In this document: piece by piece, positions 6,496-17,628 of the stretch
How positions within the stretch are numbered: the first letter of the stretch is position 1
Layout: each line of letters starts with the position of its first letter
Origin: Blastomonas sp. AAP53
GTDB taxonomy: Bacteria > Pseudomonadota > Alphaproteobacteria > Sphingomonadales > Sphingomonadaceae
Direction: 5' to 3'
Assembly (NCBI RefSeq): GCF_000331245.1
Contig: NZ_ANFZ01000009.1
Coordinates: 310,001 to 374,000, forward strand
Length of the DNA: 64,000 nt
Made by a program: the position numbers and the translations under genes
Notes under the pieces: generated by a model
The model's database searches: none
Told to the model about the DNA's origin: nothing
The model's input: only the letters and a program-made list of their open reading frames with translations

Positions 6496-6561
6496 CCGCG
6501 TGACAGCGCCGCCAAGGGCGGATAAATAACAGGAACTTTCCGTCGTTTGGAGGTTCCCCTA

Positions 6562-7185
6562 ATGATCCGCACGCTTGCTCCTGCCTTGCTCTTGTTGCCC
6601 GCTCTTGCCCTGAACGCTTGCACACCGTCCGAAGACAAGGCCGAAGCGCCTCTGCCTGCTGGCGCGTGGCAACTCGCAGCCGACCAATCGAATGTCGCGT
6701 TCGTCTCGGTCAAGGGGGGCAATGTCGGCGAAGCCCACAGTTTCAAGAGCCTTGAAGGGTCGGTGCAACCCGATGGGACGGTGGGCGTGGACATCGATCT
6801 GGTCAGCGTCGACACAGGCGTCGATGTGCGCAACGAACGGATGCGCGAGATGCTGTTCGAAGTGGCCAGCTTTCCTCAGGCCAAGCTGACCGCCAAGATT
6901 GATCCGGCGACGATCAGCGGGCTCAAACCCGGCGAGCGCAAGGCGATGACGGTGCCCGTGACGCTGGACCTGCATGGAACGACCAATAGCATTGACGCGC
7001 GGCTGATGGTCACGCGGCTCGCGGGCGATACCGTTCTTGTAGAGACTGCCGCGCCGCTGATCCTTGATGCTGCAGCGGTAGGCCTGGGCGAGGGTGTGGA
7101 AAAGCTTCGGGCGATCGCCAACCTGCCGGCAATCAGCAGCGCTGTCCCCGTCACTGCCTCGCTGGTGTTCAAACCCAAAGTCTGA
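6562..7185 (+). CDS. YceI-family periplasmic lipoprotein
   Basis: Starting at ATG 6562 the protein has 207 residues. A strong GGAGG ribosome site at 6549-6553 decides this start over the in-frame TTG at 6547, which overlaps it. A signal peptide ends in a lipobox (LNAC), so the mature protein should be lipidated. The body is a YceI lipocalin-like domain: an AWQL..D.SNVAFVSVKGG beginning, SVDTGVDVRNERMREMLFEV, FPQAKLTAKI and a terminal VTASLVF strand. YceI proteins bind isoprenoids or other amphiphiles, but the ligand here is unknown. The gene follows the GGDEF-EAL gene by 66 bp and lies just upstream of the sulfatase module. Confidence 0.88.
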   Translation: MIRTLAPALLLLPALALNACTPSEDKAEAPLPAGAWQLAADQSNVAFVSVKGGNVGEAHSFKSLEGSVQPDGTVGVDIDLVSVDTGVDVRNERMREMLFEVASFPQAKLTAKIDPATISGLKPGERKAMTVPVTLDLHGTTNSIDARLMVTRLAGDTVLVETAAPLILDAAAVGLGEGVEKLRAIANLPAISSAVPVTASLVFKPKV

Positions 7186-7201: not shown

Positions 7202-7237
7202 TTGCGCTGGACAATAAACCGTCATAGCCTGTGTCAA
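7202..7237 (+). promoter_or_regulatory. Candidate promoter with overlapping inverted repeat, first sulfatase
   Basis: A TTGCGC hexamer at 7202-7207 lies exactly 17 bp before TAGCCT at 7225-7230. The same -10 hexamer at the same spacing occurs in front of the GST gene and the DUF1330 gene. Overlapping it is a 19-bp imperfect dyad at 7219-7237 (CCGTCAT, 5 bp, GTGTCAA), related to TTGACAT-N5-ATGTCAA at 14300-14318. The ribosome site follows at 7265. Function is inferred from the similarity of the three sites. Confidence 0.45.
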
Positions 7238-7276
7238 AATGTGGCCTTGTGCTGCTGGCACATTGGGAGAGGTGCG

Positions 7277-9109
7277 TTGTCCGGTTTGAAGCCAATTGCG
7301 ATGATGGCGACGGCAGTGGCGATGGCGGTAGCGGTAGCGGTGGCGGCGGCGGGGCCTCCGGCGGCAGGGCCACCACGTCCAGATTTAGCTAACGCGTCAC
7401 TGCCAACTGCAGCGAGGCCGGGAAAACCACCCAATTTCGTCGTCCTGCTCGCCGACGATCTCGCCCTGATGGACCTGGGGACTTACGGGGGCGAGGCTCA
7501 TACGCCCAATATTGAGGCGCTTGCCATCCGCGGGCGCATATTCAAGCGCCACTATACCTCGCCGCTGTGTTCGCCTTCGCGAGCCATGTTGCTCACCGGG
7601 CTGGACAACCATCGTACCGGCGTCTCGACCATTCCCGAGGTGATCCCCAAGGAACATGTCGGCAAGAAGGGCTATTCGCTCAGCTTCGAGCCTGGTGTGA
7701 CGACCATTTCCACGCGGCTCCGCCAGCGCGGCTATCGGACCTACATGACCGGCAAATGGCATCTGGGCAGCGGCAAGGGCGACCTGCCCAACGCACACGG
7801 CTTCGACCGGTCGTTCGTGCTCGATGCCTCGGGCGCGGACAACTGGGAACAGAAATCCTATATCCCCTATTACGCCACCGCGCCGTGGTTCGAGGATGGC
7901 AAACCTGCCACCTTGCCCAAGGACTTCTATTCCTCGCGCTTTCTGGTTGATCGGATGATCGACTATATCGATGCCGGTGATGCGCAGCAGCCGTTCTTCG
8001 CATACATCGGCTTCCAGGCCATCCACATCCCGGTGCAGGCGCCCGAAGAGTTCACGCGCAAATACGCCGATACCTATCGCGAAGGCTGGGCGGCGATGCG
8101 CAAGGCCCGGTGGCAGCGTGCGCAGGCCATTGGCCTGATCCCGCAAGGGGCTCCGCTGGCCGAACTGCTGCAGAGCTTGCGCCGCTGGGAGAGTCTGTCA
8201 AAAGGCGAGCAGGCGCTGTTCGCCCGCCATATGGCGATCAACGCCGGCATGATCGAGGCCATGGATCATCACATCGGCCGGCTGGTCGCGTATCTCAAGC
8301 GCACTGGCCAATATGACAACACCGTGTTCGTGTTCACCTCCGACAACGGTCCCGAGCCCAGCGATCCGATGGCGACATCTGCGACCATGGAGCTGTGGAC
8401 CCGCGCAAATGGCTACAGCGTTTCTGCCGACAATTGGGGCGAGAAGGGGACTTACGCCTTCATCGGGCCAGAGTTTGCCAATGCTGCCGCATCCCCCGGC
8501 GCGATGTTCAAATTCTATACCAGTGAAGGGGGCCTGCATGTTCCGATGGTTATTGCCGGGCCGGGGGTTGCGCCTGCAGAGCCGAGCGCGGCGATGACCA
8601 CGGTCAGCGATATCGCGCCGACCCTGCTCGCGTTGGCCGGGGGAACCGCGCAGGACCAGGCGTTCGATGGATCGTCGCTGGTGCCTTTGCTGAGCGGAGC
8701 CAGTGAAACGGTGCGTTCTGCTGACACCGCGGTCGGGTTCGAAGTGTCGGGCAACGCAGCGCTCTTCAAGGGCAGCTACAAGCTGGTGCGCAACCTTGCG
8801 CCTTATGGCGATGGTGTCTGGCGGCTGTTCGATATCGCGAGCGACCCGGGTGAGACGCGGGATCTTCGCAAGGCCGAGCCTGCCAGGTTCGACGAGCTGA
8901 TGCAGGATTATCGCGCCTATGCCCGGCGCAATGGTGTGCTGGAAATGCCGGCTGGCTATGATTCGACACAGCAGATCGCCAAGAACACCGTGCGGAAAAT
9001 GGCTGCCCGCTATGCTTGGTACCTGCTGGCAGGGGGCATTGCCATCGTGCTGCTGGTGTACGGGGCGGTGCGCTGGATCCGGCGTCGCCGCAAGGCCTGG
9101 CCTGCTTGA
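7277..9109 (+). CDS. Exported arylsulfatase-type sulfatase with C-terminal membrane anchor
   Basis: I chose the TTG at 7277 because GGGAGAGG lies at 7265-7272; ATG 7301 or 7304 are alternatives. The 610-residue protein begins with an Ala/Val-rich signal (about residues 8-30) and continues with NFVVLLADDLALMDLG, the metal-binding start of the sulfatase (alkaline phosphatase superfamily) fold. The signature CSPSR places the formylglycine precursor at Cys98, so it needs the FGE encoded at 12230-13162. KWHLGS, the VFTSDNG metal site and a late IASDPGETRDL segment complete the domain. A hydrophobic stretch and basic tail near the C-terminus (WYLLAGGIAIVLLVYG, then RRRRK) suggest an inner-membrane anchor facing the periplasm. 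The sulfate ester substrate is unknown. Confidence 0.9.
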   Translation: MSGLKPIAMMATAVAMAVAVAVAAAGPPAAGPPRPDLANASLPTAARPGKPPNFVVLLADDLALMDLGTYGGEAHTPNIEALAIRGRIFKRHYTSPLCSPSRAMLLTGLDNHRTGVSTIPEVIPKEHVGKKGYSLSFEPGVTTISTRLRQRGYRTYMTGKWHLGSGKGDLPNAHGFDRSFVLDASGADNWEQKSYIPYYATAPWFEDGKPATLPKDFYSSRFLVDRMIDYIDAGDAQQPFFAYIGFQAIHIPVQAPEEFTRKYADTYREGWAAMRKARWQRAQAIGLIPQGAPLAELLQSLRRWESLSKGEQALFARHMAINAGMIEAMDHHIGRLVAYLKRTGQYDNTVFVFTSDNGPEPSDPMATSATMELWTRANGYSVSADNWGEKGTYAFIGPEFANAAASPGAMFKFYTSEGGLHVPMVIAGPGVAPAEPSAAMTTVSDIAPTLLALAGGTAQDQAFDGSSLVPLLSGASETVRSADTAVGFEVSGNAALFKGSYKLVRNLAPYGDGVWRLFDIASDPGETRDLRKAEPARFDELMQDYRAYARRNGVLEMPAGYDSTQQIAKNTVRKMAARYAWYLLAGGIAIVLLVYGAVRWIRRRRKAWPA

Positions 9110-9141
9110 CCTCCTCCGCATATTGACATAGCCTCTGCCAA
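9106..9141 (+). promoter_or_regulatory. Candidate promoter with overlapping inverted repeat, GST-sulfatase operon
   Basis: TTGACC at 9106-9111, which overlaps the TGA stop of the first sulfatase, is 17 bp before TAGCCT at 9129-9134. A 19-bp dyad at 9123-9141 (TTGACAT, 5 bp, CTGCCAA) covers the -10 region, as in the promoter at 7202. The two sites share CATAGCCT followed by TG and CAA at the same spacing. The ribosome site at 9152-9158 is correctly placed downstream. Confidence 0.45.
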
Positions 9142-9164
9142 TAAAAATAACGGTGGAGATCAGG

Positions 9165-10193
9165 ATGCATGCTGTCGAACTGCTGGGGGCTCCAGGCTCT
9201 CCGTATACGCGCAAGATGCTGGCGCTGCTGCGCTATCGCGCCATTCCGTACCGGATGATCTGGGGCAGCCATATGCAGCCCCCGCCGGGCTATCCGGTGC
9301 CCAAGGTCAAATTGCTCCCCACCTTCTATTTCGGCGCAGGCGATGCGCGCGAGGCGATGGTCGATTCCACGCCGATCATCCGCCGACTCGAGGCGGAATA
9401 TCAGGGCCGTTCGGTGCTGCCCGATCACGAGCTGCTCGCCTTTCTCGACCTGCTGATCGAGGATTTTGCCGATGAGTGGATGACCAAGGCGATGTTCCAC
9501 TATCGCTGGCATTACGCCGAGGACGCTGCGAACGCCGGGCCGCTGCTGATCTTCTGGCAGAACCCAACCTATCCCGATGACACCGCACGGCAGATGGCGG
9601 ATGGATTTGCCAAGCGACAGATCGACCGGCTGTATGTCGTCGGATCGAACGATGTCACCGCGCCGATCATCGAGGCAAGTTACCTCCGGCTGATCGGTAT
9701 TCTGGACCGCATGGTATCGCGCACCGGCTTTGCGCTCGGCACCCGGCCTTCGGCGGCGGATTTTGCCATTTATGCGCAGCTCACCCAACTGGGGATTGTC
9801 GACCCCACGCCTGCGCAGCTCATGGCAAGCAGCGCACCGCGCCTGCGCGCCTGGCTTGACCGGGTAGAGGATCTGTCCGGCCTGCCCGACGGCGCCTGGC
9901 TGGCCGAAGATGCGCTGGCCGAGCATCTTGGCGAGCTGCTGGGCGAGATCGGACGCGTCTATGTGCCGTTCCTGATCGCCAATGCTCACGCCGCCGCTTC
10001 CGGACAGAGCGATTTCGAGACCGAGATCGATGGCGCACGGTGGACCCAACCGGTGTTTCCCTATCAGGCCAAGTGCCTGATGACGCTGCGCGCGGCGCGT
10101 GACGCGCTTTCGGCAGAGGCGCGCGATGCGCTTGACGGTCTGCTTGCAGGCAGCGGATGCGAGGTCCTGTTCGCTGACGAGGTGGCGGCATGA
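9165..10193 (+). CDS. Glutathione S-transferase-like protein with C-terminal extension
   Basis: The 342-residue protein starts at ATG 9165, six bases after GGTGGAG; an in-frame GTG at 9153 would destroy that site. Residues 1-80 look like a thioredoxin-fold GST N-domain (VELLGAPGSPYTRKMLALLRY, then VKLLPTF and a DSTPIIRRLE block where the cis-Pro and Ser of GSTs sit). A helical GST C-domain follows (GTRPSAADFAIYAQLTQLG). About 120 extra residues extend past the usual GST length of roughly 210. It is co-transcribed with the second sulfatase (ATGA overlap). Its role beside sulfatases is unknown; conjugation or isomerisation of the desulfated product is one guess. Confidence 0.8.
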   Translation: MHAVELLGAPGSPYTRKMLALLRYRAIPYRMIWGSHMQPPPGYPVPKVKLLPTFYFGAGDAREAMVDSTPIIRRLEAEYQGRSVLPDHELLAFLDLLIEDFADEWMTKAMFHYRWHYAEDAANAGPLLIFWQNPTYPDDTARQMADGFAKRQIDRLYVVGSNDVTAPIIEASYLRLIGILDRMVSRTGFALGTRPSAADFAIYAQLTQLGIVDPTPAQLMASSAPRLRAWLDRVEDLSGLPDGAWLAEDALAEHLGELLGEIGRVYVPFLIANAHAAASGQSDFETEIDGARWTQPVFPYQAKCLMTLRAARDALSAEARDALDGLLAGSGCEVLFADEVAA

Positions 10194-11851
10194 TCCGCAA
10201 GGCGTTCCTGGCACTTCTGGTGCTGCTGATCGCCGGCGGGACCTGGGCGTGGTTCAACAAGAGCACCGTGCTGCTGTTTGCCGCATCGCATTTCGGCAAG
10301 CACGACGTCGCCCCCAACCGTGCGGTTGCATGGCAGAAAGGGCCTGACGTACCGGCTTTGCCGGCAGACAAGCGGCCACCCAATATCGTGTTCATTCTGG
10401 CCGATGATCTGGGGATCAACGACATTTCGACCTTTGGTGGCGGTGTCGCGGGCGGGCGCGTGCCCACGCCGAATATCGATCGCCTGGCAGCGGAAGGCGC
10501 GCTCTACTCCAATGCCTATGCCGGAACCGCGAGTTGCGCGCCATCGCGCGCGATGATTCTGACAGGGCGTTATCCGACCCGTACCGGTTTCGAGTTTACG
10601 CCGACCCCCGATGGCATGGGTCGGATTGTGTCGGCGCTGTCTGCGGAAATGGATTCAGGCCTGCCGCCGTTGACCTACAAGGAAGCCGTCGTCGAAGGTG
10701 CGCCCAGTTTTGACGGGCAGGGCCTGCCCGGCAGCGAGCGGACGATTGCCGAAATCCTCAAGCCGGCGGGCTATCACAGTGTGCATATCGGCAAATGGCA
10801 TCTGGGCGACGGGCCAGAGTTCAGCGCCAATGCTCAAGGGTTCGATGAAAGCCTTCTGATGGCGAGCGCCCTGCACCTTCCCGAAGACGATCCGTACACG
10901 GTCAACGCCAAGCTGGATTTCGACCCGATCGACAAGTTCCTCTGGGCGCGGATGCAATATGCCACCAGCTACAATGGCTCAGACTGGTTCAAGCCCAAGG
11001 GTTATCTGGCGGATTACTGGACCGACGAGGCGATCAAGGTGATCGAGGCAAACCGCAACCGCCCGTTCTTCCTCTATCTGGCACATTGGAATGTCCATAC
11101 GCCACTGCAGGCGACCAAGGCCGATTATGAGGCGGTCGGTGACATCAAGCCGCACCGTCTGCGCGTTTACGCCGCTATGGTGCGCGCGCTCGACCGCAGC
11201 GTCGGGCGGATCATGGCGTCGCTCAAGGAGCAGGGGCTCGACGACAACACCATCATCGTGTTTTCCAGCGATAATGGCGGTGCCGGCTATATCGGACTGC
11301 CACAGGTCAACGCCCCCTATCGCGGATGGAAGCTGACGCTGTTCGAAGGCGGCATTCGCGTACCAATGTTCGTGCGCTGGCCAAGCCGGATCAAGCCGGG
11401 CACCCGGATCGACACGCCGGTGGCGCATATCGACCTCATGCCCACCTTCGCCAAGGCAGGCGGTGCCGCGATGCCGGCAGACCTTCAGATCGATGGTGTC
11501 GATCTTCTGGGCGATGATCCGGCCAACCCCGTCGGCAAGCGACCCGATGATGCGATCTTCTGGCAGAGCGCCTATTACCGGGTTGTCCGCCAGGGCGATT
11601 GGAAGCTGCAGGTAACCGAGCGACCGCGCAAGACCTGGCTGTTCAACCTGAGGCAGGACCCCACCGAGAAACGCGACCTGGCCGCCAGCAATCCGGCCAT
11701 GGTCGCGCAGTTGAAAGCCCTGCTCGACAAGCACCAGAAGGGCGCACGCAGGCCGCTGTATCCGCACACGATCGAAGCACCGGTGGCGATCGACAAGCCG
11801 CTGGGAGTCAAGTTCAACAAGGGCGACCCCTATATCTACTGGCCCAATTGA
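10190..11851 (+). CDS. Second exported sulfatase
   Basis: The 553-residue protein overlaps the GST stop by 4 bp (ATGA). Residues 1-22 form a hydrophobic signal or signal anchor (MIRKAFLALLVLLIAGGTWAW), so the enzyme acts in the periplasm. Metal-binding NIVFILADDLGIND, the CAPSR signature with formylglycine precursor Cys116, GKWHLGDGPEF, the VFSSDNGG metal site and YRGWKLTLFEGGIRVPMFVRWP are classical arylsulfatase A-type features. Length is usual for the family. It differs enough from the sulfatase at 7277 that a recent tandem duplication is unlikely. Substrate unknown; maturation should depend on the FGE of the same module. Confidence 0.93.
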   Translation: MIRKAFLALLVLLIAGGTWAWFNKSTVLLFAASHFGKHDVAPNRAVAWQKGPDVPALPADKRPPNIVFILADDLGINDISTFGGGVAGGRVPTPNIDRLAAEGALYSNAYAGTASCAPSRAMILTGRYPTRTGFEFTPTPDGMGRIVSALSAEMDSGLPPLTYKEAVVEGAPSFDGQGLPGSERTIAEILKPAGYHSVHIGKWHLGDGPEFSANAQGFDESLLMASALHLPEDDPYTVNAKLDFDPIDKFLWARMQYATSYNGSDWFKPKGYLADYWTDEAIKVIEANRNRPFFLYLAHWNVHTPLQATKADYEAVGDIKPHRLRVYAAMVRALDRSVGRIMASLKEQGLDDNTIIVFSSDNGGAGYIGLPQVNAPYRGWKLTLFEGGIRVPMFVRWPSRIKPGTRIDTPVAHIDLMPTFAKAGGAAMPADLQIDGVDLLGDDPANPVGKRPDDAIFWQSAYYRVVRQGDWKLQVTERPRKTWLFNLRQDPTEKRDLAASNPAMVAQLKALLDKHQKGARRPLYPHTIEAPVAIDKPLGVKFNKGDPYIYWPN

Positions 11852-12273
11852 TGGCCGATTTGCTGCCCGCGCCCGACAGTTCTGTCGCACCGACCGCACC
11901 GTCCCGGTTTCTGGCGCTGTGTGGGGTGCTGGCGGTCATCCCGGGCAGCATTCACGTGTTCCTGCCCGATGGCGGCGCGGGCATTATTGCCGGAATCGAT
12001 CTGACCCATGGCGGTGAACGGATTGTCGGCGTCTTCGCATGGGCAGGCGCCACGCAGATCGCATGGGGTCTGATGATGCTGGCGGTGGCACTGCGATATC
12101 GTGCGCTGGTGCCACTGGCGCTGGCGTTGCTGCTGCTCGAGCGGGGTCTGCATGCGCTTAACTTCTGGGCGCTCAAATCCGGAGGCCATCACCCGCCGGA
12201 AAGCTATGCCGTACTGGTCGCACTGCCGATCATTGCGCTGTTCCTGCTGCTGGCGCTGCGGCGTCGCGGATGA
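11851..12273 (+). CDS. Small integral membrane protein of the sulfatase module
   Basis: The ATG at 11851 overlaps the sulfatase TGA (11849-11851) by one base, giving 140 residues. Four hydrophobic segments are visible: FLALCGVLAVIPGSIHVFL, IVGVFAWAGATQIAWGLMMLAVAL, LVPLALALLLLERGLHAL and VLVALPIIALFLLLAL. No family is recognised and no catalytic motif is seen. Tight coupling to the sulfatase suggests a shared function, for example holding the enzyme at the membrane or handling a lipophilic product, but nothing in the sequence proves this. The 3' 44 bp overlap the end of the FGE gene on the other strand. Confidence 0.75.
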   Translation: MADLLPAPDSSVAPTAPSRFLALCGVLAVIPGSIHVFLPDGGAGIIAGIDLTHGGERIVGVFAWAGATQIAWGLMMLAVALRYRALVPLALALLLLERGLHALNFWALKSGGHHPPESYAVLVALPIIALFLLLALRRRG

Positions 12274-13162
12274 TGCGGAAGCCGATATGGTTCGATGAAA
12301 AGTCGTTTTCCTGCGGTTGGCGGGCCGCCGGGCGATAACGGGCGCAGAAATTGGCGGCACACAGCCAGCTTCCGCCCTTGATGATCATGTGCGCATCGTC
12401 CGCCGGACTGTCGGTCCATTCCCAGACATTGCCGATCAGGTCATGCAGGCCGTTGCGATCTGCCGGGAAGCAGCCTGTGGGTGCCGTTCCCGAAAAGCCG
12501 TCCACGCCCAGGTCCTTGACCGGAAAGACACCCTGCCAGTGATTGGCGCGGGGTTTGCCGCTGTCTTCGACAGCGCCTGAAAAGCGATTGCCAGGGTCGG
12601 GAAGGCCGAGGCTCGCGGCATATTCCCACTCTTCTTCGGTTGGCAGACGGCCGCCTGCCCAGTCCGCATACGCGCGGGCATCGGCCAGCGTCACGTGCAC
12701 CACCGGATGGCGTCCCTTGCCCTGGATTGTTGTTTCCGGCCCTTCGGGCGTGCGCCAGGTTGCGCCCTTGCGCAGCACCCAGCGCCCGTTGAGCCCGGCC
12801 TTGTCCCGCACGAAAAGTGCAGAGCCTGCTGCAGGATCATCGCTGGCCAGCGCTTTTTCCGCTTCGGTGACATAGCCGGTGGCTTTGACGAACGCAGCGA
12901 ACTGGTCGTTGGTGACCTCATGGGCCTGTATCGCAAAGCCATCGACCCGCAGCCGCATCGAAGGGCTTTCTTCGGGGTATAGCGGATCGGCACCCTTGAG
13001 ATACGAACCGCCAGGCAGGGTCACAAACTTCCCCTGCTCGAATTCGGCCGTTGGGCACTTGCGCATGATGGCTGGTGGTGCGTCGGGCGGCTGTGAACCT
13101 GCTGAACAGGCCGCCAGTGCCAGCGCGCAGACCAGAGCCGGTAGCGCGCGTGGCAAGATCAA
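12230..13162 (-). CDS. Exported formylglycine-generating enzyme (sulfatase maturation)
   Basis: The 310-residue protein starts at TTG 13162, overlapping the TetR stop (TTGA), so it is translationally coupled. The N-terminus is a lipoprotein-type signal ending LALAAC. The FGE-sulfatase domain follows: FVTLPGGSYLKG, EVTNDQFAAFVKATGYVTEAE, HPVVHVTLADARAYADWAGGRLPTEEEWEYAA, GNVWEW and a C-terminal GGSWLC. The two catalytic cysteines of true FGEs are both present, Cys268 and Cys273 with four residues between (CAANFC), unlike EgtB/PvdO-type relatives that lack the pair. It should oxidise the sulfatase cysteine in CxPSR to formylglycine. The signal implies this happens outside the cytoplasm, presumably in the periplasm. 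This is the only maturase seen in the window. Confidence 0.9.
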   Translation of the reverse strand: MILPRALPALVCALALAACSAGSQPPDAPPAIMRKCPTAEFEQGKFVTLPGGSYLKGADPLYPEESPSMRLRVDGFAIQAHEVTNDQFAAFVKATGYVTEAEKALASDDPAAGSALFVRDKAGLNGRWVLRKGATWRTPEGPETTIQGKGRHPVVHVTLADARAYADWAGGRLPTEEEWEYAASLGLPDPGNRFSGAVEDSGKPRANHWQGVFPVKDLGVDGFSGTAPTGCFPADRNGLHDLIGNVWEWTDSPADDAHMIIKGGSWLCAANFCARYRPAARQPQENDFSSNHIGFRIIRDAAAPAAGTAQ

Positions 13163-13743
13163 TCCACCAGCCGGGCGATCGTCAGCTTCACGACCTTGCC
13201 GGCCTCATCGATGCTGAGATTCTGGTCCTGCCGCAAGCGACGCCATGTCTGGAAGCCAGCGCACATTTCGACCGCGGAAAACAGCGTCGCATCCCTGCGG
13301 ATATTTTCCGGCAGCACGCCTTCCAGCCCGGTACGCTCCAGATGCAGGAAGCGCTGGTAGTTCAGCATCAGATATTCGGAGCTGAACCGGCGGATGCTCG
13401 CGGCAATCTTCAGCGGCATGATCCGGTCATAGATGATGGCGCGGCGATCGAGCAGTTGTTCGAGCTGCGAGCGCCACCCGTCGCCGGTGAACGGCTGCTG
13501 GATGATTGGCATGATCTCTGCCTCCATCCGCTCGGTCATTTCGCTGTAGAGGCTGTCCATTTCCTCGAAATGGCGGAACACCGTGCGCGCGCTGACGCCC
13601 GCGCGTTCGGCAATTTCAGCCGCGCTGGGCTCCATCTTGCCACCCATGATGAGTTCGAGCATGGCATCGACAATGGCTTTGCGACTGCGTTGACTACGTT
13701 GCTTGCGCCCATCGGGATGGCGGGCTGGAGATGAATCGTTCAT
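13159..13743 (-). CDS. TetR/AcrR-family transcriptional regulator
   Basis: Start is ATG 13743 (MNDSSPARHP), 194 residues. The N-terminal helix-turn-helix is clear: IVDAMLELIMGG, then AAEIAERAGVSARTVFRHFEEMDSLY, the TetR recognition-helix block. The C-terminal ligand domain (EAEIMPIIQQPF onward) matches no characterised sensor that I recognise. The gene lies between DUF1330 (32 bp upstream) and the FGE gene (4-bp overlap), so regulator and maturase are made from one transcript. It probably controls the module, including its own promoter, through one of the palindromes at 14275-14318. Ligand unknown. Confidence 0.88.
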   Translation of the reverse strand: MNDSSPARHPDGRKQRSQRSRKAIVDAMLELIMGGKMEPSAAEIAERAGVSARTVFRHFEEMDSLYSEMTERMEAEIMPIIQQPFTGDGWRSQLEQLLDRRAIIYDRIMPLKIAASIRRFSSEYLMLNYQRFLHLERTGLEGVLPENIRRDATLFSAVEMCAGFQTWRRLRQDQNLSIDEAGKVVKLTIARLVD

Positions 13744-13775
13744 GTAAAATCGCTTACCGCCATGCTCCGCATCTG

Positions 13776-14258
13776 TCACCCCTTGCTGCCAATCTGTTCG
13801 AGGAGCGGTTGAAGCCAGGGCATGTTGATCGCTTCTGCCGACAGCACGGTTTCGATGTTCAATTGCCCGTCGAGCCCGGCACTGCGGTGCACCGCGATCT
13901 CGCGCCATTCATCCGACATCGACATGCGCACCATGTCACCCCGCTTGGGATAGACGCCGATCGCGACCTCGTCCCACAGTTCACCGACCTGGCCGAGCGA
14001 AAGAAACGTGACGTCGGCGGCAAACATCGCGACGCCGCCGAATTTGGGCAGGAGCTGCGACACTGCCCGGCCGTAGATCATATAGGCCTCACGCCCGGTC
14101 AGATCGGTCTCGCGGCCATCTTCATACTCCGCCTTGTCCTTGAACTTGAGCAGGTTGATCATGAAGATCGGACCATCGGGGCCAGGCTGCATCAGCCCTG
14201 CCATGGTTTCGGGCTTGCCCGGGAACACCTCGTTGAGAACGGTAAACGGCTGCGGCAT
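13776..14258 (-). CDS. DUF1330-domain protein
   Basis: I place the start at ATG 14258 (MPQPFTVLNE), 160 residues, because AGGAGAGGA precedes it. An upstream Met would extend the protein through the operator region. The core has PIFMINLLKFKDKAEYEDGRETDLTGREAYMIYGR, the ferredoxin-like alpha/beta half typical of DUF1330, followed by a metal-free-looking VTFLSLGQVGELWDEVAIGVYPKRGDMVRM segment. Proteins of this family are small dimeric barrel-like folds of unknown function, often found with catabolic genes. It is the first gene of the DUF1330-tetR-FGE operon. Confidence 0.78.
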   Translation of the reverse strand: MPQPFTVLNEVFPGKPETMAGLMQPGPDGPIFMINLLKFKDKAEYEDGRETDLTGREAYMIYGRAVSQLLPKFGGVAMFAADVTFLSLGQVGELWDEVAIGVYPKRGDMVRMSMSDEWREIAVHRSAGLDGQLNIETVLSAEAINMPWLQPLLEQIGSKG

Positions 14259-14274
14259 CGCGATGTCCTCTCCT

Positions 14275-14318
14275 GACCAATTGGTCGGAAGGCTATATTT
14301 TGACATACATCATGTCAA
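14275..14318 (-). promoter_or_regulatory. Promoter and two palindromic operators of the DUF1330-tetR-FGE operon
   Basis: On the minus strand TTGACA (14318-14313) and TAGCCT (14295-14290) are 17 bp apart, the same arrangement as at 7202 and 9106. A 19-bp dyad, TTGACAT-N5-ATGTCAA with perfect 7-bp arms, fills 14300-14318 and covers the -35 region. A second, perfect 12-bp palindrome GACCAATTGGTC lies at 14275-14286, where transcription would start, just before the ribosome site. TetR proteins usually bind such dyads. Which palindrome is used is not known. Confidence 0.5.
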
Positions 14319-14344: not shown

Positions 14345-16117
14345 TCAGCCGATATGGTCGCGGATCACCTGCAGGAAGGCTTCGCCATAGGCTTCCAGCT
14401 TGCGCGTGCCGATCCCGGATATGCGCGAAAGCGCGTCCAGCGTTTCCGGGCTGCGTTCGGTCATCTCGCGCAAGGTGCTGTCGTGGAAGATGACATAGGG
14501 CGGAACGCCAGCCTGCTGCGCCAGATCGCGGCGGCAGGCCCGCAGGGCCTCGAACAGCGGATTGCTGACGGGATTGGACGTATCGCCGCCGCGCTTGCCC
14601 TTGCGCGTCCGCTTGGGCGGCAGCACCAGCGGCAGCTGCACCTCGTCGCGCAAAATCGCACGCGCCTGCGGCCCGAGCATCAGCCCGCCATGTTCGTTCG
14701 TGCCCAGCGCATCGCGAATCAGCAGCGCACGGGCAACGGGCTTGATCAGCGCCGCCTCGTCATCATTGACGATGCCGAACACCGAAAGCCGGTCATGCCC
14801 GCGCTGCTGCACCTTGTCGTTCGACTGGCCACGCAGCACGGATTCCAGATGGCCGATGCCAAAGCTCTGTCCGGTCCGGTACACGGCAGACAGCAGCTTG
14901 CGCGCGGTCTGAGTTGCGTCGATGCTGGCAGGGGGGGTGAGACAATTGTCGCAGTTGCCGCATTGTTCGGGTGGATCCTCGCCAAAGTGGCGCAGCAATA
15001 CCGCGCGGCGGCATCCGCCGGTTTCGACCAGCGCTCCCAAGGCGGAAATGCGCGTGCGTTCGCCTTGCTGCCGTTCCGGCTCGATTTCGGCAATGCGCAT
15101 CCGGGCACGAGCGAAATCGTCCGCTGCCCAGAACAGGTGCGCTTCGGCAGGTTCGCCATCACGTCCCGCACGGCCCGATTCCTGGTAATAGCCCTCGATC
15201 GACTTGGGCAGTCCGGCATGGACGACAAAACGCACGTCGGGCTTGTCGATCCCCATGCCGAAGGCGACGGTGGCGCACATCACCATGTCCTCGCTGGCGA
15301 TGAAGGCATCCTGATTGGCGCGGCGTTCTTCGGGCGGCATGCCGGCGTGATAGGCGCGCACCTGCCGGCGACCATCGCGCCCCAGTTGCTCGGCCAGCTT
15401 TTCCGTCGCCGCGCGGGTTTGCGCGTAGACGATGCCGGGGCCCGGATTGGCCGAGACGAGGTCGCCGATCTGCCGGGTCAATCCATCGCGCGGATGGATG
15501 GCATAGCGGATGTTGGGCCGGTCGAACCCGGCGATGATCATGCCATCGGGCGTGATGCCCAGTTGCTTGAGGATATCCTGGCGGGTGTGCTCATCGGCGG
15601 TGGCGGTCAGCGCGAGCCGCGGGCAATCGGCAAAGCTGTCGAGCAATGGGCGCAACAAGCGATAGTCGGGCCGGAAATCGTGCCCCCATTCGGAGACGCA
15701 GTGCGCCTCGTCGATGGCAAACAGGGCAATCGGAGCGCAGCCCAGCAGGTTGCGGAATCCTTCGGAACTCGCGCGTTCGGGGGCGACATACAGCAGGTCC
15801 AGATCGCCTGCGCGGAACCGGTCCTGCGTCTGCTGCCAGTCGGCATCGACCGAGGTCAGGCTGGCGGCGCGGATGCCCAGCGCCTGGGCTGCGCGCAATT
15901 GGTCGTGCATCAACGCGATGAGCGGGGATATGACGACACAGCAGCCGTCAAGGGCGACGGCGGGCAGCTGATAGCACAGGGATTTGCCGGCCCCGGTGGG
16001 CATGATCGCCAGCGTGTTCTGCCCGTCGAGCACGCGGCTCACCACCTGCTGCTGCACCCCGCGAAAGGCGGAAAAGCCGAAAGTTTCTTGCAGGACATCG
16101 AGCGGATTGCGATTCAT
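14345..16117 (-). CDS. recQ: ATP-dependent DNA helicase RecQ
   Basis: The start at ATG 16117 (MNRNPLDVLQ) gives 590 residues, close to the E. coli length; the longer open frame upstream is out of family. Visible in order: the Q-motif region FGFSAFRGVQQQVV, Walker A (MPTGAGKS, residues 39-46), ISPLIALMHDQ, the DEAH box (DEAHCVSEWGHDFRPDY), ITPDGMIIAGFDRPN, the VAFGMGIDKPDVRFVVH and SGRAGRDG helicase motifs, a zinc site (Cys-Arg-Arg ... CGNCDNC), the winged-helix region and a C-terminal HRDC domain (SRISGIGTRKLEAYG). It unwinds recombination and fork-repair intermediates in the cytosol. It lies 65 bp after the response-regulator gene and on the same strand. Confidence 0.96.
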   Translation of the reverse strand: MNRNPLDVLQETFGFSAFRGVQQQVVSRVLDGQNTLAIMPTGAGKSLCYQLPAVALDGCCVVISPLIALMHDQLRAAQALGIRAASLTSVDADWQQTQDRFRAGDLDLLYVAPERASSEGFRNLLGCAPIALFAIDEAHCVSEWGHDFRPDYRLLRPLLDSFADCPRLALTATADEHTRQDILKQLGITPDGMIIAGFDRPNIRYAIHPRDGLTRQIGDLVSANPGPGIVYAQTRAATEKLAEQLGRDGRRQVRAYHAGMPPEERRANQDAFIASEDMVMCATVAFGMGIDKPDVRFVVHAGLPKSIEGYYQESGRAGRDGEPAEAHLFWAADDFARARMRIAEIEPERQQGERTRISALGALVETGGCRRAVLLRHFGEDPPEQCGNCDNCLTPPASIDATQTARKLLSAVYRTGQSFGIGHLESVLRGQSNDKVQQRGHDRLSVFGIVNDDEAALIKPVARALLIRDALGTNEHGGLMLGPQARAILRDEVQLPLVLPPKRTRKGKRGGDTSNPVSNPLFEALRACRRDLAQQAGVPPYVIFHDSTLREMTERSPETLDALSRISGIGTRKLEAYGEAFLQVIRDHIG

Positions 16118-16182
16118 CCGCCCGCTCTTATGGACGCATTCGGGTGCAGGGAAGGGAAAAAGGCTCTCGGGCCCCGCGCGGC

Positions 16183-17628
16183 TCAGGCGGCGTTGTCGAT
16201 GCCCAGCTCGGTCAGCTTGCGATAGAGGGTGGACCGACCAATGCCCAGCCTGCGGGCGACTTCGGTCATGCGCCCTCGGTAATGGCCGATCGCGAGGCGG
16301 ATGACATCGGCCTCGATTTCCTCGAGCGGACGCAGGTTGCCGTCTTCGGCGTACAGGGTGATGCCGATGCCGTCGTGGCTGGTGGATGCCCGCCGCGGCT
16401 CCTCTTCGCCCAGCATATGGGTGAGCTGCGGAAACTCGGCGGTGGTCAGCGCATCGCCATCGCAGAAGATCGCGGCGCGGAACAGCGCGTTCTGCAGCTG
16501 GCGGACATTGCCCGGCCAATCGAAGCTGGAGAGCAGCTGCAGCGCCTCGTCGGTGATTCCAAGGCCGCGCAGGCCAGGCTGTTCGGCAATGCGCGCGAGG
16601 AAGTGGCGGACGAGGGCAGGGATGTCGCTGGTACGGTCGCGCAGCGCGGGAATCGTGATCTGCACTGGTGCAATGGCGAAATACAGGTCTTCGCGGAAGG
16701 TGCCGGCATCCACCATCGGCTTGAGCGGGGTGTTGCTGGCGCAGATGAAGCGAACGTCGCAGCGGAAACTGTGCCTCGCACCCAAAGGCTGGATTTCGCC
16801 TGCACGGATTGCGTCAGCCAATTTGGCCTGCGATTCCAGTGGAACCTGGTCGATCTCGTCGATGAAGATGGTGCCGCCGTCCACCCGCTGGATGACGCCG
16901 ACATGGCGGTCGAATGCGCCGGGAAAGGCTCCGCGCTCGTGGCCGAAGAGATGCGATTCGATCTGCCCGCTGGACGCATTGGCGCAGGTCACCAGTCTCA
17001 GCGCGAGCTTGGAGCGCGGGCTGGCGGCATGGATGGCGCGTGCGATCATCTCCTTGCCGGTCCCGGTTTCGCCTTCGATCAGCACGGGCGAATGGGTGCG
17101 GGCGGATTTGGCGGCGATGGCCAATGCCGCGCGAAACCGCGGCGACGATCCGATCATCTCGTCGAAATCGAGCGGGGCTGCGATCTTTTCCGTGAGCGGG
17201 CGAAGTTCGGCAGCATCGTCGGTGCGTGCAGCTGCGTTCAATGCGGCGACCAGCCTGTCGGGCGCAATCGGCTTGATCAGGTAATCGGTGGCGCCTGCGC
17301 GCATCGCTTCCACCGCCAGCAACGGCGAGGTGCTTGTGGTGAGCATCAGGATAGGCAGGGCAGGGCGGCGGGCTTTCAGCTCGGCAATCAGTTCAGCGGC
17401 TTCATCGCCCGGGACCCATTGGTCGAGAATGATGGCATCAAGCATCATCCCTTCCTGGGTGCCCAGCATCGCAATGGCAGTTTCCGAATCGTGCGCAAAC
17501 AGCGTCCGCCAGCCGGCCTTGGCAGCCAGCGCCGAGACGAGACGGCATTGCGCCGGTTCGTTGTCGATCAGCATCACCCGTCGGGTCTGCTGGTCTGCGT
17601 CAGTTCGTTCCTTTGCCATCGCCATCAT
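16183..17628 (-). CDS. NtrC-like response regulator with variant GAFPGA loop
   Basis: The 481-residue protein has a receiver domain (phospho-acceptor Asp69 in IILDQW, Lys119 in LIKP), an AAA+ domain (Walker A GETGTGKE at 186-193, Walker B GGTIFIDEID) and a Fis-type C-terminal helix-turn-helix (TEVARRLGIGRSTLYRKL). The loop that contacts sigma-54 reads GAFPGA at 233-238 instead of GAFTGA. The Thr in this loop is needed by known sigma-54 activators, so this protein may act without sigma-54, like some alphaproteobacterial NtrC-type regulators. No kinase gene is adjacent. It is divergent from the aa3 subunit IV-pnt operon across a 150-bp gap. Target genes unknown. Confidence 0.9.
   Translation of the reverse strand: MMAMAKERTDADQQTRRVMLIDNEPAQCRLVSALAAKAGWRTLFAHDSETAIAMLGTQEGMMLDAIILDQWVPGDEAAELIAELKARRPALPILMLTTSTSPLLAVEAMRAGATDYLIKPIAPDRLVAALNAAARTDDAAELRPLTEKIAAPLDFDEMIGSSPRFRAALAIAAKSARTHSPVLIEGETGTGKEMIARAIHAASPRSKLALRLVTCANASSGQIESHLFGHERGAFPGAFDRHVGVIQRVDGGTIFIDEIDQVPLESQAKLADAIRAGEIQPLGARHSFRCDVRFICASNTPLKPMVDAGTFREDLYFAIAPVQITIPALRDRTSDIPALVRHFLARIAEQPGLRGLGITDEALQLLSSFDWPGNVRQLQNALFRAAIFCDGDALTTAEFPQLTHMLGEEEPRRASTSHDGIGITLYAEDGNLRPLEEIEADVIRLAIGHYRGRMTEVARRLGIGRSTLYRKLTELGIDNAA

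Follow-up and report, generated by a model that had tools for sequence, protein, structure and literature searches.

Two sulfatase operons of Blastomonas belong to a conserved module with a shared candidate operator

Sulfatases of the S1 family, in which the roles of the active-site residues are known, and the cysteine-type formylglycine-generating enzyme (FGE) form the closest described systems to the locus presented here, with which they have CxPSR sulfatases and a two-cysteine FGE in common. A second family that concerns us is that of the haloalkane dehalogenases (HLD), for most of which we know of no natural role or substrate. The locus lies in a 64,000-nucleotide stretch of the 3.6-Mb genome of Blastomonas sp. 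AAP53 (G000:C9:310001-374000, hereafter the window), and consists of seven genes at 7277-14258 that open reading frame (ORF) calls and Pfam matches resolve into two convergent operons, including two sulfatase genes that we call S1 and S2. The gene set recurs in Alpha- and Gammaproteobacteria and is a real module. A palindrome, TGNCA-N7-TGNCA, stands as a candidate operator ahead of three promoters of the module and of three distant genes in five close genomes. We consider it probable that these genes form a catabolic regulon under the control of TetR, whose substrate would be a natural compound that is sulfated and amphiphilic. The features of the locus are as follows.

7220..7236, no strand: candidate TetR operator at the S1 promoter, CGTCATAGCCTGTGTCA; one mismatch to TGNCA-N7-TGNCA, rank 3 in the 64-kb window, orthologous site in 5/5 loci
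7277..9109, plus strand: S1, predicted formylglycine-type sulfatase with CSPSR; PF00884, signal peptide and C-terminal transmembrane anchor
9124..9140, no strand: candidate operator in the gap between S1 and the GST-like gene, TGACATAGCCTCTGCCA; rank 1 in the leave-one-genome-out scan
9165..10193, plus strand: glutathione S-transferase (GST)-like protein with a C-terminal extension of ~95 residues (Pfam, model and Foldseek); no export signal seen
10190..11851, plus strand: S2, predicted formylglycine-type sulfatase with CAPSR; PF00884, N-terminal transmembrane anchor
11851..12273, plus strand: four-helix membrane protein with HxFLPDGGA and HHPPE motifs; predicted model, no Pfam match
12230..13162, minus strand: FGE with lipoprotein signal LAAC and TTG start; PF03781, both cysteines aligned
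13159..13743, minus strand: TetR-family regulator; TetR_N 28.6 bits, cut-off 24
13776..14258, minus strand: DUF1330 protein, from PF07045 matches of its orthologs
14301..14317, no strand: candidate operator at the DUF1330-TetR-FGE promoter, TGACATACATCATGTCA; rank 2 in the leave-one-genome-out scan

An earlier reading made from the sequence only had described two facing operons with these seven genes, and the ORFs, Pfam matches and overlaps confirm it. The plus-strand operon runs from S1 through the GST-like gene and S2 to the four-helix gene, and the minus-strand operon from DUF1330 through TetR to FGE. Read off the sequence, the GST-like gene and S2 overlap by 4 bp, S2 and the four-helix gene by 1 bp, and TetR and FGE by 4 bp; a 32-bp gap separates TetR from DUF1330, the spacer of 55 bp between S1 and the GST-like gene contains a candidate operator, and the 3' ends of the two operons overlap by 44 bp. 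The start codon of S1 is most likely the TTG at 7277.

How far does this gene set reach beyond one strain? Two genomes of the same genus (G001 and G095) carry all seven genes at 77-89% protein identity, and the module is also found in Blastomonas natatoria and in a Blastomonas metagenome-assembled genome (MAG). In an even draw of 149 genomes of the family, the GST-like protein (matches at E up to 1e-20) occurs in 23/149 and S2 (matches at 1e-90) in 15/149, with both in 9 (Fisher p 3e-5). Among nine further S2 regions, three, from two genera, have S1, FGE and TetR around S2 and no GST-like gene, four hold other partial sets, and two (G074 and G142) hold S2 alone. A profile search of contigs anchored on the GST-like protein (16 aligned GSTs; the best 80 of 566 relatives were taken) gave S1 or S2 in 45 of 80 loci and both in 24. 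The partners in these 45 loci, counted at identity thresholds that we set and with short contigs depressing the counts, are FGE (23), TetR (28), a metallo-beta-lactamase-fold protein (MBL; 23), DUF1330 (19), an anchored DUF1330-like protein (7; either of these two, 24), a GST-kappa-like double protein (17), HLD (12) and the four-helix protein (9). S2 lies at most 150 bp after the GST-like gene in 28/42 loci. Module loci span Hyphomonadaceae, Sphingomonadales, Caulobacteraceae, Parvibaculum and gammaproteobacterial MAGs. The conserved synteny in relatives that the sequence-only reading had called for is therefore present, and its proposal of a regulated sulfatase module is supported, as a conserved and apparently co-regulated one, by this synteny and by the shared motif. 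Its word "self-contained" does not hold, because further copies of the candidate operator stand ahead of HLD, MBL and GST-kappa-like genes at other places on the chromosome; some relatives carry these three genes within the module. A search of open-licence PMC text found no publication on this gene set.

The first two sites found were the perfect palindrome of the DUF1330 promoter and, upstream of the GST-like gene, a copy with two mismatches; an alignment of five close loci, same-genus genomes among them (the Blastomonas group), revealed a third one upstream of S1. A matrix built from four genomes ranked the three module sites 1-3 in the held-out fifth all five times, within 19-64 kb; the genomes are related and shared descent explains part of this ranking, but not that three different promoters share the motif. 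The promoter of TetR itself holds the conserved palindrome, and the module TetR is the obvious candidate to bind it. For a fresh test we took the 769 kb of the 42 module loci that fall outside the Blastomonas group. They contain 73 copies of the motif, and 50 of these stand upstream of a module gene, where 6.0 would be expected (binomial p 5e-37, a value too small because the loci are related). Control spacings of 3-6, 8, 9 and 11 gave 0-2 upstream copies, spacing 10 gave 5/12 (p 0.002), and seven other palindromes gave 0-1 upstream copies in the 42 loci. Gene by gene, the motif stands upstream of S1 in 11/21, GST-like in 16/42, GST-kappa-like in 7/17, HLD in 6/12, DUF1330 in 4/16, anchored DUF1330-like in 2/7, four-helix in 3/6, GST3 in 2/3 and GST2 in 0/2; the counts for MBL (0/23), TetR (0/25), FGE (1/19) and S2 (1/39) are near zero, and these genes would usually be operon-internal. 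At least one motif upstream of a module gene is present in 28/42 loci, compared with 3/35 loci that have the GST-like gene only.

A genome-wide pattern search returned 20 places (22 strand hits), listed before their genes were known. Three of the 20 are the sites of the GST-like, DUF1330 and GST-kappa-like genes, the last of which (C6:253378) abuts a gene recognised afterwards; four other places were inspected, of which one lies before a desaturase gene, one in a long ORF and two have no clear target. With seven of 20 places characterised, the pattern alone is not specific. The sites of HLD1 (C9:411139-412044, 37 kb past the right edge of the window) and MBL were found next, with matrix scores of 15.7 and 15.0; a background set of 163 upstream regions was scored as well, and the 19 with at least 15 belong to module genes, HLD1, MBL, the desaturase and three genes adjoining these in divergent orientation, plus one unrelated gene of the window. 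In the five genomes 5/5 HLD1 and 5/5 MBL orthologs have the motif 36-52 bp ahead of the gene start or of the conserved N-terminus, and it abuts or overlaps the start codon of the GST-kappa-like gene in 5/5 (read by eye, outside the fixed upstream interval of the script). The MBL palindrome of this genome sits in a longer inverted repeat that is perhaps something else; we kept the site because the five orthologs all have the core motif, whereas the repeat around it varies among them.

HLD1 matches the haloalkane dehalogenase model NF002043 at 430 bits (cut-off 265), and the four HLD homologs scanned score 310-455 bits against the same cut-off; 13 aligned rows of HLD homologs from module loci retain the HGxP, DWG and terminal His motifs. 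HLD is present in 12/45 module loci versus 2/35 GST-only loci, and in the family genomes in 12/15 with S2 versus 53/134 without it (p 0.003, uncorrected for kinship). MBL has a hydrophobic N-terminus by eye, and its top solved match is 8gyg, "Arysulfatase" (E 1.1e-27), followed by PNGM-1 and RNase Z, so that it is a possible third sulfatase, independent of formylglycine. The GST-kappa-like protein matches 1r4w, a mitochondrial GST that we take to be of the kappa class, at 6e-6, and 2-hydroxychromene-2-carboxylate isomerase (HCCA isomerase, 2imd) at 1.5e-4.

Several neighbours of these genes deserve mention. Next to HLD1, at L149:1835-3483, stand genes for a 4-hydroxyphenylpyruvate dioxygenase (364 bits, cut-off 277) and a glyoxalase-like protein, and the sole strict motif copy in the 9-kb stretch around HLD1 is the one upstream of it. 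Outside the window, an operator-like site of score 22.8 (G000:C8:4267, L150:4267) lies 76 bp upstream of the gene for the fatty-acid desaturase, in the interval that separates it from a divergently oriented gene, and marks a possible further regulon member. In another locus (L072:6010) the motif stands ~25 bp before an ORF resembling by eye an MFS/GPH-type transporter, a candidate uptake route. An oxidoreductase-like protein, DUF2855-like by eye, recurs near module or GST loci (L108:8699, L122:4500-5582, L075:11027-12106), in L108 with the motif upstream. The module itself is flanked by a YceI-like gene at 6547-7185 and a RecQ helicase gene at 14345-16519; among the 80 GST-anchored loci, the YceI gene adjoins the module in three Blastomonas-group loci only.

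Both sulfatases have the PF00884 fold (E 1e-59 for S1 and 9e-57 for S2), CxPSR and the catalytic K, H, DN and K columns of S1-family sulfatases, from which their activity is predicted, and they are the only two PF00884 proteins of the genome. The closest solved relative of S1 is the arylsulfatase 1hdh (E 1.6e-103, aligned over most of S1), which we take to be PAS of Pseudomonas aeruginosa; the alignment preserves xPxR, GKWHLG, DN and K, and at the Cys column the PDB sequence has an A, presumably the modified residue. S2 is closest to the exo-4S-kappa-carrageenan sulfatase 6prm, with the Cys and other columns kept, and then to 9fo1 (S1_16) and 9hh3 (S1_19). We set aside a carbohydrate-sulfatase reading, because reading the recurrent neighbour clusters by eye, short of a family scan of them all, revealed no glycoside hydrolase or polysaccharide gene.

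FGE (PF03781, E 1.8e-61) aligns with the FGE of 1y1e, presumably the human enzyme, with both active-site Cys columns kept, and falls far under the EgtB and SenA cut-offs, as expected of a SUMF1-type protein. A strict two-Cys expression matched 17/24 members of its cluster, one of the others being truncated. FGEs have been described as cuproenzymes (PMC12452194). Because anSME models find no match in the genome and its sole other PF03781 protein is EgtB (579 bits, cut-off 360), maturation of S1 and S2 depends on the module FGE as far as profiles can tell. A C-terminal hydrophobic or transmembrane segment is present in 25/26 S1-cluster members, an N-terminal hydrophobic segment in 31/35 S2-cluster members (ORF clusters of recurrent neighbours), and a lipobox-like Cys near the N-terminus in 18/24 FGE-cluster members (by regular expression, which wrong starts can mislead). 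These anchors and the lipobox support the earlier proposal of membrane-tethered sulfatases with an exported FGE, and together with the absence, by inspection, of an export signal in the GST-like protein they predict S1, S2 and FGE to sit at the periplasmic side of the inner membrane and the GST-like protein to be cytosolic.

The GST-like protein matches GST_N_3 (1.8e-9) and GST_C_2 (1.7e-7); its model (pLDDT 90) shows a thioredoxin-like N domain and a helical C domain, with 4kf9 as top Foldseek match, followed by 3ic8 and StyI (E ~1e-5). Identity to 4kf9 is low (19%), and the protein may use glutathione. Direct transfer of the sulfatase product to it, as proposed from the sequence, was rejected in that form, since the two would work on opposite sides of the membrane, and a transport step would therefore be needed. 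Outside the module the GST-like gene has no widely conserved partner (the biggest other cluster covers 5/43 loci), which therefore gives no hint at its reaction. The predicted structure of the four-helix protein (pLDDT 88) consists of four long helices; the protein has no Pfam match at E up to 1 and no confident fold match (best Foldseek E 0.21). TetR has the TetR_N helix-turn-helix (E 1.2e-6), and an R[TS]VFRHF-type recognition helix was found by regular expression in 19/23 cluster members. The DUF1330 protein of the window alone scores under the PF07045 cut-off (E 0.1); its aligned orthologs match in 12/12 cases at E up to 0.5 (best 4.7e-8), and RPA0582, a protein of solved structure, is matched by the profile at 2.5e-28. 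A membrane-anchored DUF1330-like protein (profile probability 97.8) takes its place in some module loci. This protein, seen at L124:10990-11640 and in relatives, has hydrophobic segments at both ends and occurs in 7/45 module loci, five of them without soluble DUF1330.

In the pathway that we favour, S1 and S2 would be exported, held by their C-terminal and N-terminal anchors, respectively, and given their formylglycine by the lipoprotein FGE. They would remove sulfate at the periplasmic face of the inner membrane, from a substrate that the sequence-only reading took to be hydrophobic. Once desulfated, the product would enter the cell, perhaps assisted by the four-helix protein, and be processed there by the GST-like and GST-kappa-like proteins and the enzyme of the haloalkane dehalogenase family, with DUF1330 in an auxiliary role. 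TGNCA-N7-TGNCA would be the site at which TetR represses both the promoters of the module and the three distant genes (HLD, MBL and GST-kappa-like), with substrate or product lifting this repression. Several observations weigh against this regulon. In G074 and G142, S2 and the GST-like gene lie apart, each without partners; 35/80 loci have the GST-like gene without the module, three of the 35 with the motif upstream; 14/42 module loci have no motif upstream of any module gene; and the low counts at MBL and FGE in the 42 loci are compatible with operon-internal genes and lend no support. The strict wording of the motif followed the HLD1, MBL and kappa-like sites, so that only the 42 other loci test it afresh, and the module-site matrix gives the MBL sites of the four other genomes just 10.7-11.6, compared with 17-29 for module sites. 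HLD is found in a minority of module loci, and the pathway rests on predicted activities and a candidate substrate class.

What could the substrate be? A more specific version, which we think unlikely, is a pathway for biogenic sulfated organohalogens, in which two or three sulfatases would act at the membrane, ahead of hydrolytic and glutathione-dependent dehalogenation. Algal chlorosulfolipids, in which a single lipid chain bears two sulfate esters and several chlorines, are the leading candidate class under this version because two sulfates and halogens fit. In open-licence PMC text nothing linked chlorosulfolipids with a sulfatase, and papers on chlorosulfolipid degradation were off-topic by listing. 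Somewhat easier to accept, if still doubtful, is that the same regulon serves a halogen-free substrate such as sterol, terpenoid or aromatic sulfates, with HLD acting as a non-dehalogenating alpha/beta hydrolase: HLD occurs in just 12/45 module loci, family members are found in 65/149 family genomes, 53 of these without S2, and MBL is arylsulfatase-like. The 430-bit match of HLD1, the catalytic Asp, His and the Trp after Asp kept in the 13 aligned rows, and the motif at HLD1 and at none of its paralogs (0/6, one genome contributing two) speak for a true dehalogenase. That TetR senses an algal or xenobiotic sulfated toxin, which the cell inactivates and does not eat, appears improbable to us; the combination of TetR, GST and HLD, the desaturase site, which would suit membrane stress, and the lack of a beta-oxidation set recognisable by eye among the listed recurrent neighbours would agree with it, but two dedicated exported sulfatases and an FGE seem costly for that end. 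Sulfur scavenging under sulfate limitation is very unlikely, for although S1 is closest to the P. aeruginosa arylsulfatase, which is induced by sulfate starvation, the partners are HLD, GST and GST-kappa-like proteins and the regulator is a TetR instead of a sulfur-status regulator.

Our results on the proposed TetR-controlled catabolic regulon suggest an undescribed, widespread pathway degrading sulfated, possibly halogenated, natural compounds. Two "arylsulfatase" operons become a defined, widely distributed regulon with a testable candidate operator, which offers a direct route to listing the whole pathway in any genome, and haloalkane dehalogenases are linked to sulfate-ester turnover in aquatic bacteria. 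Sulfated halogenated lipids would gain a candidate degrader and, if the organohalogen version were true, orphan subfamily-I haloalkane dehalogenases a natural role.

How does the module compare with the systems already described? PAS (1hdh) is a full-length relative of S1 with shared active-site columns, and S1 differs from it in its signal peptide, C-terminal transmembrane anchor and location in a module. The carrageenan sulfatases are the closest solved kin of S2, but no polysaccharide-degrading gene was recognised by eye among the recurrent neighbours of the module. HLD shares the catalytic motifs of the NF002043 haloalkane dehalogenases (5esr and DhlA relatives), here motif-linked to sulfatases, and MBL, for which 8gyg is the best solved match, stays under every NCBIfam cut-off among the matching models. 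Compared with known sulfatase and FGE systems, the FGE here is a predicted lipoprotein, the two sulfatases next to it are anchored at opposite ends, and the motif links them to GST, HLD and MBL genes.

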